A stretch of DNA of 64,000 nucleotides from Onishia taeanensis (GTDB taxonomy: Bacteria > Pseudomonadota > Gammaproteobacteria > Pseudomonadales > Halomonadaceae). Location: the NCBI RefSeq assembly GCF_003268885.1, contig NZ_QLSX01000007.1, positions 1 through 64,000 of the forward strand, read 5' to 3'. Under the pieces are notes generated by a model. That model worked only from the letters and a program-made list of their open reading frames with translations. It did no database searches and was not told the DNA's origin. The position numbers were made by a program, and so were the translations under genes. Every line of letters begins with the position of its first letter. The first letter of the stretch is position 1. Shown here in pieces: positions 1 through 6,966 of this stretch.

Positions 1-345
1 TCCGACAGGAAGGTGACGAAGCACCAGAATCGCCGATGATTCGTTACTACATCAGTTCGGCCGAGCTGAGCGCCATGAAGCTCGCAGAAGCGGCCCGCCA
101 GCATTGGTTTGTCGAGAATAAGCTCCACTGGTCCTTGGATGTGGCGCTCCGCGAGGATGCCTGCAAAATCCATCGCGGGCAGGCAGCAGAAAACCTCGCC
201 AGGGTCCGCCATATCGCCCTGAATTACTTGAAAGGGGAGAAGCGTTTCAAGGGCGGAATTCGGCGAAAGCAGAAGAAAGCCGCGCTGGATGAGACATACC
301 TTGCTGACATTCTCGCGGTCTGATTTTTTTCATGCGTTTTCCCTG
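1..345 (+). mobile_element. ISAs1-family insertion sequence, right-hand end only
   Basis: This is the right end of an ISAs1-type element whose left part lies outside the window. It holds the 3' end of the transposase gene, a stop codon at 321-323 and a short tail ending CATGCGTTTTCCCTG (331-345). That tail resembles the terminal inverted repeat of the family as I recall it. From base 346 the sequence is UDP-glucose dehydrogenase coding DNA in a different frame, so 345/346 is taken as the element boundary. The left end and target duplication cannot be seen. Confidence 0.75.
3..323 (+). CDS. ISAs1 family transposase, C-terminal part (5' end outside window)
   Basis: The open frame runs in from the window edge and ends at TGA 321-323. 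The translation carries the C-terminal signature of ISAs1/H-repeat transposases: RYYISS, then [13 protein letters not shown] followed by the acidic ED of the DDE catalytic core, then an N..RVRHIALN helix. An internal ATG at 36 is not the real start because the homology continues upstream of it. Whether the full element is intact cannot be judged here. The product would cut and paste the IS and has no housekeeping role. Confidence 0.85.
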
Positions 346-957
346 GGTATCGGCAGCGATCCGCGCATCGGCTATCACTTCATCTACCCGGGCTGCGGTT
401 ACGGCGGTTCCTGTTTTCCCAAGGACGTGCAGGCGCTGGCGCGCACCGCCAGCGAGGTTGATTACCCAGCAGATCTGCTGAATGCCGTCGAGAGCGTCAA
501 TCGTCGTCAGAAAAGCACCCTGTTTGCCAAGCTCAACCAGGCCTTCGACGGCGATCTGGCCGGCAAGACGATTGCCCTGTGGGGCCTTGCTTTCAAGCCC
601 AACACCGATGACATGCGCGATGCCCCGAGCCGCGACGTCATGGAAGCGCTGTGGGCGGCCAGCGCCAGGGTGCAGGCCTATGACCCGGAGGCTATGAAGG
701 AATGCCGGCGCATCTACGGAGAGCGCGATGACCTGGTGCTGGTGGCCGATCGCATTCAGGCCGTGAAGGGCGCGGATGCGCTGGTCATCTGCACCGAGTG
801 GAAGGAGTTCCGCATTCTCGATTTCGACTGGCTCAAGGCGCAGCTCGCCATGCCGGTGGTGGTCGACGGGCGTAACCTTTTCCCGCCGAAGGCCGTCAAG
901 GATGCGGGCCTGATGTACTACGCAGTGGGCCGTGGTGACTCTTTGGCTTCAGCTTAG
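346..957 (+). pseudogene. ugd: UDP-glucose 6-dehydrogenase, 3' remnant truncated by the IS
   Basis: About 203 codons of the C-terminal half of a UDP-glucose/GDP-mannose dehydrogenase remain. They begin at [12 protein letters not shown] and include the catalytic-cysteine motif [10 protein letters not shown], the central dimerisation helix and the C-terminal UDP-binding domain ([17 protein letters not shown]). The intact enzyme (about 440 residues) oxidises UDP-glucose to UDP-glucuronate for capsule or exopolysaccharide. The NAD-binding Rossmann half is missing and is replaced at 345/346 by the ISAs1 end. An ATG inside the IS (289) would give a short fusion, but it lacks the cofactor domain. 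The remaining frame is undamaged, which suggests a recent event. Confidence 0.85.
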
Positions 958-1016: not shown

Positions 1017-2921
1017 TTAGCTGATTAATATACGCTCGCGAAGGTGTTTGATGACTACATCCGCCGCTTCTTCGCTGCCCATGTCGCCTGTTCTAAGGTG
1101 AACATCAGGAGCCTCGGGCGCTTCGTAGGCGGAATCGATGCCTGTGAAATTCTTCAGCTCGCCGCGCCTAGCCTTCTTGTACAGCCCCTTGGGGTCACGG
1201 TCTTCGGCCACATCTAGCGGGGTATCGACGAAGATCTCGATAAACTCGCCATCTTCCACTAGGTCCTTGGCTAACTGCCGCTCGCTGCGGAAGGGCGAGA
1301 TAAAGGCCGTCAATACGATCAGACCTGCATCCACCATCAGTTTGGCTGTTTCGCCGACGCGGCGAATGTTCTCGACCCGGTCAGCATCGGTGAAGCCCAG
1401 GTCACGGTTGAGGCCGTGGCGGACGTTGTCACCATCCAGCAGGTAGGTGTGTTGGCCGGCGGCATGTAGCTTTTTCTCGACCAGGTTGGCAATGGTCGAT
1501 TTTCCGGCCCCTGAAAGCCCGGTAAACCACAGCACGGCAGGGCGCTGATTTTTGGCAGTGGCTCGTGCCTGCTTGTCGACATCCACGTGCTGCATGTGAA
1601 TGTTTTGGCTGCGGCGCAGTGCAAAGTGCAGCATACCGGCGCCGACGGTGTTGTTGGTCATTCGGTCGATGAGGATGAAACCGCCAGTGTCCTGGTTGTC
1701 TTTGTATGGGTCGAAGGCCACAGGGCGGTTCAGGCTCAAGGTGCAAACGCCAGTGGCATTGAGGTCCATCTGCTTGCCAGCGGTGTGCTCCAGCGTATTG
1801 ACGTTAATCTGGTACTTGATGTTTGTGACGGTTGACGACACTGCCTGCGTACCGAGCTTCATCAGGTAGGGACGACCGGGCAACAGGGCTTGTTCATGCA
1901 TCCAAACGATGGTGGCCTCAAACTGGTCGGCTGTTTGAGCCGGCTGATCCACGCCCGAAATCACATCGCCGCGTGAAATATCGATTTCGTCGTCCAGCAG
2001 CAAGGTGACGGATTGACCGGCGACGGCTTCTTCCAAGTCGCAATCGAAGGTATAGATGCGCTTGACGGTGCTGTTCTTGCCGGATGGCTGTACGCGAATC
2101 GCATCGCCCGGTTTTACGCAGCCACTTGAAATCATCCCGCTGAAGCCACGGAAGTCCAGGTTAGGGCGGTTGACCCACTGCACCGGCATGCGAAAAGGCG
2201 TGCGTTGCAGGTGTGCTTCATCTATCTCGACGGTTTCCAGGTAGGCCATCAGCGTCGGGCCGTGATACCAGGGCATATGATGACCATGCTCGATGACGTT
2301 GTCGCCTTTTAGCGCCGACATCGGGATGAAGGTGATCTTTTCCAGGCCGAGCTGTCGTGCCAAGTCGCGGTATTCCTCGACGATTTCGTCGAATCGCGCC
2401 TGCGAGTAGTTCACTAGGTCCATCTTGTTGATCGCCACCACCACATGGCGCATGCCAATCAATGACATCAGAAAGCTATGTCGGCGTGTCTGCGTCAGGA
2501 TGCCGTGGCGGGCGTCGACCATCAGGATGGCGGCATCGGCCGTCGAGGCGCCGGTCACCATGTTGCGGGTGTACTGCTCGTGCCCAGGGGTATCGGCGAC
2601 GATGAACTTGCGCTTATCGGTGGAAAAGTAACGGTAGGCCACATCAATGGTGATGCCTTGTTCGCGCTCGGCGGCCAGGCCGTCCACCAGCAGCGCGAAG
2701 TCCATGTCGCCGCCCTGGGTGCCGTACTTGCGCGAGTCGGCTTCGATGGCCGCTAGCTGATCCTCGAATAGCAGCTTGGATTCGAACAGTAGGCGCCCGA
2801 TCAGTGTGCTCTTGCCGTCATCCACGCTGCCACAGGTAATGAAGCGCAGCAGGCCCTTGTTTTCGTGTGACTTGAGGTAGCCCTCAATGTCACCGGCGAT
2901 CATGTCGGAAGCGTGTGCCAT
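1017..2921 (-). CDS. cysNC: Bifunctional sulfate adenylyltransferase subunit 1 / adenylylsulfate kinase (CysN-CysC fusion)
   Basis: This 634-residue protein has an EF-Tu-like GTPase domain first: P-loop GSVDDGKST near residue 31, [12 protein letters not shown], and NKMDL. Two beta-barrel domains follow, and from about residue 460 there is an APS kinase domain with its own P-loop GLSGAGKST and the [13 protein letters not shown] motif. The CysN part couples GTP hydrolysis to APS synthesis by CysD. The CysC part phosphorylates APS to PAPS. The complex acts in the cytoplasm in assimilatory sulfate reduction or to supply sulfotransferases (NodQ-like). The start follows from homology at residue 1. 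It is separated from cysD by about 290 bp holding a degraded element, whereas the two genes normally sit side by side. Confidence 0.95.
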
Positions 2922-2932
2922 GAATAACCCTT

Positions 2933-2965
2933 TAGCTATAAGCTGTAAGCCATAAGCTGTAAGTA
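2933..2965 (+). repeat. Left arm of inverted repeat flanking the four-helix-bundle remnant
   Basis: Two 14-base direct copies of ATAAGCTGTAAG plus two variable bases lie here, ending with AAGTAC. The same sequence occurs in inverted orientation at 3162-3189. The two arms enclose the degraded gene at 2975-3133 and resemble terminal inverted repeats of a small cassette. Confidence 0.7.
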
Positions 2966-2974
2966 CAACCAGTC

Positions 2975-3133
2975 CTAGCTTGCAGCAGAATCGTCATTGT
3001 CCAGCGAGGTGATCAGGCCGGATCTTGTGACCTGATCCTTGAAGCCGAAATCACGTAGATCCCGCATCGCCTTGTAAATCTCGGCGGATAACCTCGCCGA
3101 GCGCTGCCATACCTGCAGCCTTTCGAAATTCAT
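2975..3133 (-). pseudogene. Four-helix-bundle (23S rRNA intervening-sequence / S23-type) protein, truncated remnant
   Basis: The 52-codon frame starts MNFERLQVWQRSARLSAEIY and reaches FGFKDQVTRSGL. This is the N-terminal signature of the four-helix-bundle family once described from 23S rRNA intervening sequences (normally about 115-125 residues). The family usually continues S(I/V)PSNIAEG; here the text changes after RSGL and stops at TAG 2975-2977, so about the last two thirds are missing. GGCGGCG precedes the ATG as a weak ribosome-binding site. It lies between cysD and cysNC, in their direction, inside inverted AAGCTGTAAG-type repeats. The function of chromosomal family members is not known. 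Confidence 0.7.
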
Positions 3134-3161
3134 CGCCGCCACCTCTGCAAGCTGTTGGGAT

Positions 3162-3189
3162 TACTTACAGCTTACAGCTTACAGCTTAG
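3162..3189 (-). repeat. Right arm of inverted repeat flanking the four-helix-bundle remnant
   Basis: TACTTACAG followed by two further CTTACAG units and CTTAG is read here. Its reverse complement is AAGCTGTAAG repeated with a 7-base period, ending GTAAGTA. It mirrors the left arm at 2933-2965, whose inner end also reads CTGTAAGTA. Confidence 0.7.
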
Positions 3190-3211
3190 GGCTCTTCCAG
3201 GCGCTCCGCGC

Positions 3212-4114
3212 CTAGAAGTACCCCTCTTGCTTTTTCTTTTCCATGGATGCGGCACTGTCGTGGTCGATGACGCGGCCTTGCCGTTCGGATGTTCTGGTGA
3301 GCAGCATTTCCTGAATGATCGCCGGCAGAGTGTCGGCCTCGGATTCCACGGCACCGGTCAGTGGATAGCAGCCCAGGGTGCGGAAGCGCACCTTGCGCAT
3401 CATGGGTACTTCGCCTGGCTCCAGCGGCATCCGTTCATCGTCGACCATGATCAGGGCGCCATCACGTTCCACGACAGGCCGTTCTGCGGCGTAGTAGAGA
3501 GGAACGATGGGGATGTTCTGCAAGTAGATATATTGCCAGATATCCAGCTCGGTCCAGTTGGAGAGCGGGAACACGCGTATTGATTCACCCTTGTGCTTGA
3601 AGGTGTTGAAAACCCTCCAGAGTTCGGGGCGTTGGTTCTTTGGGTCCCAGCGGTGTTGATCGGTGCGAAACGAGAAAACACGCTCCTTGGCGCGGGACTT
3701 TTCTTCGTCGCGACGCGCGCCGCCGAAGGCGGCATCGAACCCGTACTTGTCCATTGCCTGTTTGAGACCTTCGGTCTTCATTACATCGGTATGAATCGCC
3801 GAGCCGTGGGTGAAGGGGTTGATATCCTTCTCGATGCCTTCCGGGTTGATATGCACCAGCAGGTCCATTCCCGCTTCCTCGGCCATACGGTCCCGAAACT
3901 CGTACATGGCACGAAATTTCCAGCGGGTGTCCACGTGGAGTAGGGGGAAGGGAGGAGGCGAGGGCGAAAATGCCTTTCGCGCCAGGTGCAGCATCACAGC
4001 GCTATCCTTGCCGACTGAGTAGAGCATGACCGGGTTTTCGGACTCGGCAACCACCTCGCGCATGATCTGGATGCTCTCGGCCTCGAGGCGTTGTAGATGG
4101 GTGAGTGTCGTCAT
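3212..4114 (-). CDS. cysD: Sulfate adenylyltransferase subunit 2
   Basis: This 300-residue protein is the catalytic subunit of ATP sulfurylase, which makes adenosine 5'-phosphosulfate from ATP and sulfate with CysN as GTPase partner. It starts [15 protein letters not shown], as other CysD proteins do. It has the PP-loop [10 protein letters not shown] at residues 33-42, then [37 protein letters not shown] and a C-terminal RQGRVIDHD segment. Length and motifs are full, so it should be active. It is transcribed toward cysNC and preceded 51 bp upstream by the transposase-derived HTH gene on the same strand. Confidence 0.96.
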
Positions 4115-4165: not shown

Positions 4166-4939
4166 TTATAGCTTGCTGTTGAGCGGCACGTCGAGAAGGT
4201 GAAAATCAGTGTGTAGCTCGAGCCAAGCGGCTATCTCTGCGCTTGCCTTGAAAAAGGCTCCATGGAAAATCAGTGCTGTCGGGCCTTGATCGGCCAAGCG
4301 CTCGAACAATTCAATATAGTCTCTGGCCTTTGGTGGCGAAGCGAATAGGCAGGTGTACAGCACGCCGCGCTTGCCATGCACATACAACTGGTAGCAAGGC
4401 GCCTGGCGATCGTTTGAATTTGTGACGACGCGCACACCTCCCCGCCATTGAGTACCGCCAAGGCTACGCACTCGCTCAACAACCGGCTGTACTTGCTGAC
4501 GCAACCACCGCCCTTTGCGTGAACGCCTTGCCGCGGCCTCTAGTGACATGGGCGCCGGTTTGAGATCCCGCGCCTCCAGCCAGTGTTCTACAGCGCGCGG
4601 CGAGACCTTTTGTCCTGTCTCATCGCTGAGTGCCTCTGCCAGCTCCCGGCTAGTCCAGCCGGGGCTTTTATCGGTAGGCCAGCGAGATAGCCGCTGCCAC
4701 AGGTACTCTCTTTCAGGCTCGCGAAGCCTCTTAGTGTTGCCCTTGTGACGGCCGCGAGGGCGAACCGGCACCGCTTGCCAGCCTCCTTCCCTAAAAGCCT
4801 TCCAGGCGGCTGAAATCGTCGGTGCAGATAGCCCGGTGCGTTTTGCCGTGCTGGCTACTGTCAGGCCATCAAGGCGTAAGCGAACTGCCTCTAGACGGCG
4901 CTGATTGAGCATTTCAGGCGATAAATGTTTAGCGCTCAT
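4166..4939 (-). CDS. Transposase-derived winged-helix protein (IS630-like, catalytic residues lost)
   Basis: The 257-residue protein opens with tandem HTH/winged-helix domains typical of IS630/Tc1-mariner transposases (RRLEAVRLRLDGLTVASTAKRTG.S..TISAAWKAF, then GWTSRELAEAL and SPRAVEHWL). The second half keeps the spacing of the DDE domain (GKRGVLYTCLF, DYIELFERLA, an IFHGAFFKASAEIAAWL segment). However, the expected acidic residues are absent: no DE at the first strand, LD.A.IH reads IFHGAF, and the final PPYSP.LNP.E block is replaced by DVPLNSKL and a stop. It lacks recognisable terminal repeats and lies 51 bp upstream of cysD on the same strand. It may be a DNA-binding protein recruited from a transposase. 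Decay is the alternative, but the frame is intact. Confidence 0.65.
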   Translation of the reverse strand: MSAKHLSPEMLNQRRLEAVRLRLDGLTVASTAKRTGLSAPTISAAWKAFREGGWQAVPVRPRGRHKGNTKRLREPEREYLWQRLSRWPTDKSPGWTSRELAEALSDETGQKVSPRAVEHWLEARDLKPAPMSLEAAARRSRKGRWLRQQVQPVVERVRSLGGTQWRGGVRVVTNSNDRQAPCYQLYVHGKRGVLYTCLFASPPKARDYIELFERLADQGPTALIFHGAFFKASAEIAAWLELHTDFHLLDVPLNSKL

Positions 4940-6799: not shown

Positions 6800-6966
6800 G
6801 AGGGCCTCTGCAGCGGCCGGAGTGAAGCACGACCCATCCCCTGTGTACAATGGGCTGAAACTTGAGCCGACACGCGGGAAATACCATTTTTCGGATGGGT
6901 TTCAGAGCGCGTCAGGGGCGCGAGCCTAGTGTATTGTACGATGAGATGCGGAGAACCAATAAAGGC

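Follow-up and report, generated by a model that had tools for sequence, protein, structure and literature searches.

Between cysD and cysNC of Onishia taeanensis, in the first 64,000 nucleotides of contig NZ_QLSX01000007.1 (hereafter the window), lie 290 bp (2922-3211) that contain a fragment of a gene and two arms of repeated sequence, and the question is what this insert is and how it came to stand inside an operon. An earlier note, made from the sequence alone, had described it as a small mobile cassette, inserted in operon direction, with a truncated S23/IVP-type four-helix-bundle gene between inverted repeat arms. The position of the insert, its splitting of cysD (end at 3212) from cysNC (start at 2921), its orientation and its arms were all borne out by our analysis; the arms are 32 nt each and 88% complementary, and both read ...CTGTAAGTA inwards. 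The repeat itself is not a single fixed inverted repeat, as had been assumed, but a pair of tandem 7-mer arrays whose unit varies from element to element. The parts are listed in Table 1.

Table 1. Parts of the cysD-cysNC region in the window
Feature	Position	Strand	Remarks
cysD, 300 aa	3212..4114	-	upstream host gene, accessory sulfate-activation operon; orthologues in G168 and G166
cysNC (CysN fused to APS kinase)	1017..2921	-	downstream host gene
GC-rich hairpin TTCTAGGCGC-GGA-GCGCCTGGAA	3195..3217	-	last codon and stop of cysD form the 5' arm
Upstream TAAGCTG heptamer array (left arm, gene sense)	3162..3193	-	
S23/IVP four-helix-bundle gene remnant	2975..3133	-	52 aa from ATG; internal deletion derivative
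Junction of 201-nt in-frame deletion	3013..3019	-	GGCCTG microhomology
Downstream array of inverted TAAGCTG/TAAGCCA heptamers (right arm, gene sense)	2934..2965	-	
CTAAAGGG, Shine-Dalgarno-like stretch before the cysNC start	2928..2935	-	right edge of insert; by eye

With up to two mismatches, the array pattern TAAGCNNTAAGCNNTAAG has seven matches in the window, all inside the insert, where 0.09 would be expected and the maximum of 100 shuffles was two. In the whole genome, six matches to the TAAGCTG array pattern were obtained with at most one mismatch, five of them in the insert and one on another contig (C11), where it adjoins another array. That site (L107, G000:C11:117227) consists of a long CGAAGCT array, a terminator-like hairpin and a facing TAAGCTG-like scrap, and has no S23 match. 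Right edges resembling that of the insert are present at other S23 loci, and it is plausible from the sequence that the insert leaves a Shine-Dalgarno stretch ahead of cysNC. Folded as RNA, the insert has a computed energy of -146 kcal/mol (z -7.5); its stem measures ~26 bp.

The sole family match between the arrays is the S23 remnant; neither a transposase nor a RAYT gene was found in the insert, and the window's genome has no RVT_1 match. An IS630-type transposase-like frame (4166-4939, minus strand) lies directly upstream of cysD and matches the N-terminal part of its model only (E 4e-15, positions 1-115 of 299). At the start of the window, a short frame (36-323) which we take to resemble the end of a transposase adjoins a 5'-truncated gene (289-957), presumably related to nucleotide-sugar dehydrogenases, beside the cys operon; a presumed glycosyltransferase-like gene lies nearby at 6862. 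Together with the operon, window 1-957 and the gene at 6862 perhaps form a sulfated polysaccharide locus.

The open reading frame at 2975-3142 (minus strand) matched PF05635 with an E value of 7e-6, under the curated cut-off because the match is partial, and NF008912 with an E value of 2e-16 over profile positions 1-40 of 117, also under the cut-off; on these two sub-threshold matches the remnant belongs by sequence to the S23/IVP family (PF05635, TIGR02436). No second S23 match was found in the window's genome by profile search, and relatives above the cut-off occur in 68 of 275 genomes of the bacterial family. Three full-length relatives of 119 aa (L048, L058 and L063) have both termini in common with the remnant, are 82-83% identical to it over shared columns, and differ from it by a single 201-nt in-frame internal deletion at a GGCCTG microhomology, equal to 67 codons. 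The gene is therefore an S23 remnant, as had been proposed, but one shortened internally rather than truncated at an end. L058 and L063 each stand ahead of a cysN start that closely resembles the window's.

The structure predicted for L058 (pLDDT 96) has four helices, and a Foldseek search with this model matched Xcc0516 (2gsc), BT_0352 (2rld) and Avd of diversity-generating retroelements (DGRs; 4dwl, 8ube). The structures 2gsc and 2rld contain five chains each, and Xcc0516 is described as a homopentamer in the available text of PMC4990558. The four-helix bundle of the family is predicted in this way for the full-length relative L058; the remnant is without 67 of the residues. The median dN/dS across pairs of S23 genes, 155 in number and non-independent, was 0.048, and intact full-length frames were present in 65 of 70 chosen family loci; the S23 protein is under strong purifying selection. 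The window insert, judged from its sequence, is a dead copy that kept both ends of its gene.

Are other S23 genes flanked in the same manner? We took 121 oriented S23 loci of Pseudomonadota, of which 71 (L001-L071) came from the 109 rows of a search of the window's family, the 38 unused rows being lower-ranked ones, six of them above the cut-off, and 50 (L108-L157, of which L129 is again from the window's family) from the 92 rows of a phylum-wide search. Flanks were usable at 119 loci, L031 and L125 being dropped for short flanks, and 236 random windows of the same spacing, drawn from 59 control loci, served as controls. With thresholds of 13 here and 14 below, both picked after the scores were seen, a best facing inverted repeat of at least 13 was found at 53 of 70 family loci (the window's included) and 28 of 49 phylum-wide loci vs 3 of 236 controls, with the arms falling under the threshold at the other 17 and 21 loci. 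A periodicity of 7 in both flanks was seen at 50 of 70, 23 of 49 and 0 of 236, respectively. The arms most often comprised four units (46 of 96 left arms and 56 of 98 right arms).

The same anatomy was seen outside this phylum. Among the best 80 loci of the matches listed in a scan of named records, 78 were usable (L176 and L178 had short flanks), and their phyla, as judged from the record titles, included Bacteroidota, Patescibacteria, Planctomycetota, Chloroflexota, Firmicutes, Spirochaetota, Acidobacteriota, Desulfobacterota and more. A locus's own arms scored at least 14 in 46 of the 78, vs 3 of 160 mismatched pairs; the best period on both sides was 7 in 47 of the 78 loci and 8 in 14. An S23 gene between facing 7-nt arrays is thus shown to be a widespread anatomy, present in many bacterial phyla. 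That the window copy might be the only one so flanked is clearly not the case, and the suggestion that full-length relatives carry the same repeat holds for the facing arrays, although not for the unit.

This anatomy recalls the intervening sequences (IVS) of 23S rRNA genes. The IVS of Coxiella burnetii is 428 nt long and has an S23p ORF that is decayed in some strains, a 28-bp terminal stem and, directly upstream of S23p, two to three heptamers in tandem; mobility of the ORF was suggested by Ralph and McClelland in 1993 (as cited in the available part of PMC4990558, the source for all of these). The window insert is similar in that its S23 ORF lies between complementary termini able to form a stem (88% between the arms; z -7.5 for the fold), each arm commonly having about four heptamers among the loci studied here, but it lies between cysD and cysNC, in a protein operon, and not in an rRNA gene. 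A link between the two settings was provided by genome G490, where an S23 gene with facing TCAGGAA-type heptamers is located within the 23S rRNA gene (1288 bits); in the single rRNA case examined, intergenic and rRNA elements have one common anatomy. We read the window copy as a dead IVS-type element outside rRNA. On balance, the insert is probably a dead copy of a widespread IVS-type selfish element that consists of one S23 gene and two facing 7-nt arrays.

The cys operon of the window is a second, accessory copy; the other cysN of the genome (L310, on C4) is preceded by a gap of 126 bp with no arrays. Orthologues of the accessory operon were found in two genomes of the genus, whose CysN proteins show 99% and 98% identity in the 100 residues at the N-terminus. 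At the empty sites L073 and L074, cysD and cysN overlap at their stop and start codons (TGATG), and the gene and the arrays are both missing. Comparison of empty and filled sites, which the earlier note had proposed, revealed by eye no more than an imperfect resemblance of GGGTATTTC to GGGTTATTC, and a target-site duplication could not be demonstrated. In a survey of 30 cysN loci, the window's included, 29 had a recognisable cysD end; ten of these had no gap, 17 had a gap without 7-periodic arrays, and two, the window and G013 (L086), had arrays. The earlier note had counted repeats in a gene-less cys gap against its cassette, and such repeats do occur: L086 has facing CGAGCTA arrays and no gene, and one of the 17 gapped sites (L092, in G003) has a short array-like scrap. 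Because the window copy too has suffered gene loss, we read both as decay products like it.

Gene-less arrays are also found elsewhere. At the gene-less loci that were printed, facing arrays stand at gene ends, often around a terminator-like hairpin (by eye), and at L243 the adjoining stop codon forms part of the array. At the leuA end, compared in 30 genomes, hairpins were recognised by eye both with arrays (L260 and L264) and without (L261 and L263), and the unit differs by genome: TAAGCTG in L260 and L264, GAAGCTG in L270, an octamer in L272 and GCGCTAG in L286. Since the bracketed host hairpins exist free of arrays elsewhere, arrays may form in place. A simple cut-and-paste cassette is unsatisfactory for the same reason, namely that gene-less arrays enclose host hairpins that are also present without arrays. 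What remains of the proposed cassette is that gene and arrays are a recurring unit, absent together from L073 and L074.

The cys site itself has a further peculiarity. A cysD end lies just upstream of S23 at 56 of the 121 loci; in 50 of these, a start resembling that of cysN was recognised on the downstream side. At L140, L150, L153 and L155, the S23 gene follows a cysD end in three other Gammaproteobacteria family groups (f16, f35 and f9). The presence of S23 at the cysD end across family groups may reflect either a shared hotspot or an old resident. The arrays at this site are mostly preceded by a hairpin with one arm formed by the cysD end, and complete six-base pairing with the local stop codon was found at 41 of 52 occupied family loci vs 0 of 18 gapped sites that lack S23. 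In all 41 fully paired cases, the locus's own stop was the best match, and at L045 the inverted copy extends further into cysD. Both cysD ends of G152 (L045 and L057) are followed by GAAGAGG-type S23 elements, the stretches being 91% identical over 2.4 kb. Template switching at hairpins would leave inverted copies of this kind. Because the hairpins here are inverted copies of host sequence, the cysD end, copying through host replication is favoured over cut-and-paste.

These observations can be put to another use. The insert could be an immobile regulatory or processing element, the arrays of which form an RNA stem in the operon transcript that is cut by RNase III, with S23 binding to tune the flanking genes. 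The computed fold of the insert RNA, the stems of rRNA IVS as RNase III substrates (PMC4990558, as far as available), the frequency of a cysD end just upstream (with four of the 56 in three other family groups) and the agreement of the hairpin with the local stop codon wherever pairing is complete (41 of 41) are all consistent with such a role. However, a stem of sense RNA should tolerate G-U pairs, and among 79 deduplicated arm alignments scoring at least 13, from which counts are non-independent, mismatches compatible with G-U numbered 29 in the sense and 59 in the antisense strand, the wrong sign. We take this as a lack of support for the sense-RNA stem and not as proof of a role of the DNA. 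In the same alignments, A-C-type mismatches (gene sense) were twice as frequent as the G-U type, a strand asymmetry. Moreover, some sites are empty and some copies lack an intact gene, arrays of these units stand at many other places, and the element also occurs in rRNA. We regard an immobile processing element as unlikely.

Movement of S23 elements was not observed and is inferred here. Among nine same-genome locus pairs, no identical elements were found at unrelated sites; the sole identical pair, in G490, stems from duplication of a 23S rRNA region, and the remaining eight have diverged or are unrelated, the two elements of G343 matching at only 69%. An attempt to define the element ends from a recent copy pair failed, the only identical pair being that rRNA duplication. 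DNA similar to the insert was not found in a plasmid collection, and matches in a phage collection were to the host cys genes only. A partner reverse transcriptase was considered and is unsupported: 27 of 48 S23-positive genomes, seven of these single-contig, have no RVT_1 match, and a resident RVT_1 reverse transcriptase is therefore not needed. This bears on the idea that the element is non-autonomous and is moved by an unrelated host transposase or reverse transcriptase, with S23 as an accessory like Avd in DGRs, an idea to which the match of the S23 fold to Avd (4dwl, 8ube), the partner of a reverse transcriptase, lends some substance. Those same 27 genomes argue against it, as does the lineage specificity of the arrays, which is unlike ends read by one shared transposase, and we find it distinctly unlikely.

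The lineage specificity was examined on a tree of 68 S23 proteins from the family loci, which omits L001 for its shortness, L007 because no unit had been assigned to it, and L031. On this tree, built from few columns and with 33 of 64 inner branches open, 10 unit classes, assigned with hand-made word lists drawn up after the arms had been viewed, required 9 changes, which is the minimum (shuffled mean 42.6). For cys-site elements only, four units required three changes, again the minimum, and the GAAGCTG and AGCGCCC classes, taken alone, are not single branches. For host genus, this tree called for 17 changes (minimum 8, shuffled 23.3), and a single unit class occurs in as many as six genera; therefore, the elements are not simply passed down with the host. 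Within the family, the unit is shown to go with the protein lineage.

The number of hits of a unit also depends on the S23 gene that is present. In 275 genomes, GAAGCTG counts, which are of overlapping hits rather than arrays, include the arrays beside the gene and ignore phylogeny except for the split by genus, had a median of 56.5 (minimum 6, 20 of 20 nonzero) where S23 has GAAGCTG arms, vs 3 (33 of 46 nonzero) where it has other examined arms (MWU 5e-7), 0 (4 of 20 nonzero) where the arms lay outside the examined set and 0 (37 of 189 nonzero) in genomes without an S23 match. In the largest genus, the medians were 163 (same unit, n = 13), 4.5 (other examined arms, n = 26) and 0 (n = 49). G107, with 81 hits and no S23 match, is a counter-example. 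For TAAGCTG, in 80 hand-picked genomes, the medians were 11 with S23 of the same unit (13 of 13 nonzero), 2.5 with S23 of another unit (23 of 34) and 0 without S23 (12 of 33). A unit is thus shown to have more hits in genomes whose S23 gene has the same unit in its arms.

A prediction follows. GGGAATC heptamers are known from Xanthomonas (PMC4692102, in its available text), and if S23 is behind heptamer repeats, a genome with GGGAATC arrays should have an S23 gene between GGGAATC arrays. Such arrays were found in one of 369 Gammaproteobacteria genomes, G425 (19 hits; the reversed-pattern control gave 0 there), and its S23 gene, although frame-broken, is flanked by GGGAATC and GATTCCC arrays. 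The S23 match in G425 was known before the array scan, but its flanks were then unseen. The prediction held. The only other genome hit was G809, with eight hits of the reversed control, from a different heptamer array family. That all these arrays are ordinary heptamer microsatellites made by polymerase slippage, in which the S23 gene hitch-hikes or lands, would suit the over-representation of the little-studied heptamers in bacteria (PMC4692102 and PMC4679880, in their available texts), the arrays in 37 of 189 genomes without S23 and the existence of other heptamer arrays in G809, but is very improbable in the face of facing arrays at S23 genes far above control windows and of a unit that matches the protein lineage at the minimum number of changes.

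How might an IVS-type selfish element of this kind spread? As ring size and unit number suggest about one 7-nt unit per subunit, the S23 ring would read its own unit on folded or single-stranded arrays and would promote copying of the arrays by host replication. Within an array, copying would proceed by slippage, and between arms by strand switching templated by a hairpin; neither a transposase nor an RVT_1 reverse transcriptase would be needed. Between one stop codon and the start codon that follows it, copies would be tolerated, the insert supplying a ribosome site. The window copy, minus its 67 codons, could be acted on only in trans. A wider and more tentative proposal, which may well prove too broad, is that S23 proteins are sequence-reading rings, each with a lineage-specific 7-nt word, that create facing arrays and spread them through host replication without a transposase or reverse transcriptase and thereby cause both the bacterial excess of heptamers and the IVS of 23S rRNA.

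MITEs and REP/REPIN sequences are also short non-coding copies that go with an autonomous gene family; unlike these, S23 elements end in variable tandem arrays and not in a fixed terminal repeat. The fold of S23 is that of Avd, but the DGR reverse transcriptase has no counterpart in the insert or, as judged from RVT_1, in the window's genome. Intergenic tandem 7-mers like those described here have been reported from Xanthomonas (GGGAATC, with 70 and 75 convergent pairs in the two genomes studied) and Nostoc (PMC4692102), and from Beggiatoaceae (TAACTGA; PMC4679880), as far as the available texts go. These texts hold no mention of S23 or four helix, whereas in our GGGAATC genome an S23 gene stands between the arrays. 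Likewise, the available part of the Coxiella IVS paper (PMC4990558) does not present facing arrays as a rule, the matching of unit and protein, or gene-less arrays. A search by which subscription papers were poorly covered brought up no literature that draws a general link between S23 genes and facing heptamer arrays.

The S23/IVP family is widespread and its structures are solved, but it has no known function, and the known excess of heptamer repeats in bacterial genomes is unexplained. Position, the matching of unit and lineage, copy number and a successful prediction link the two here, so that the role of the family can now be tested directly. Intervening sequences of rRNA, intergenic heptamers and the S23 protein would in this manner be joined as one system.
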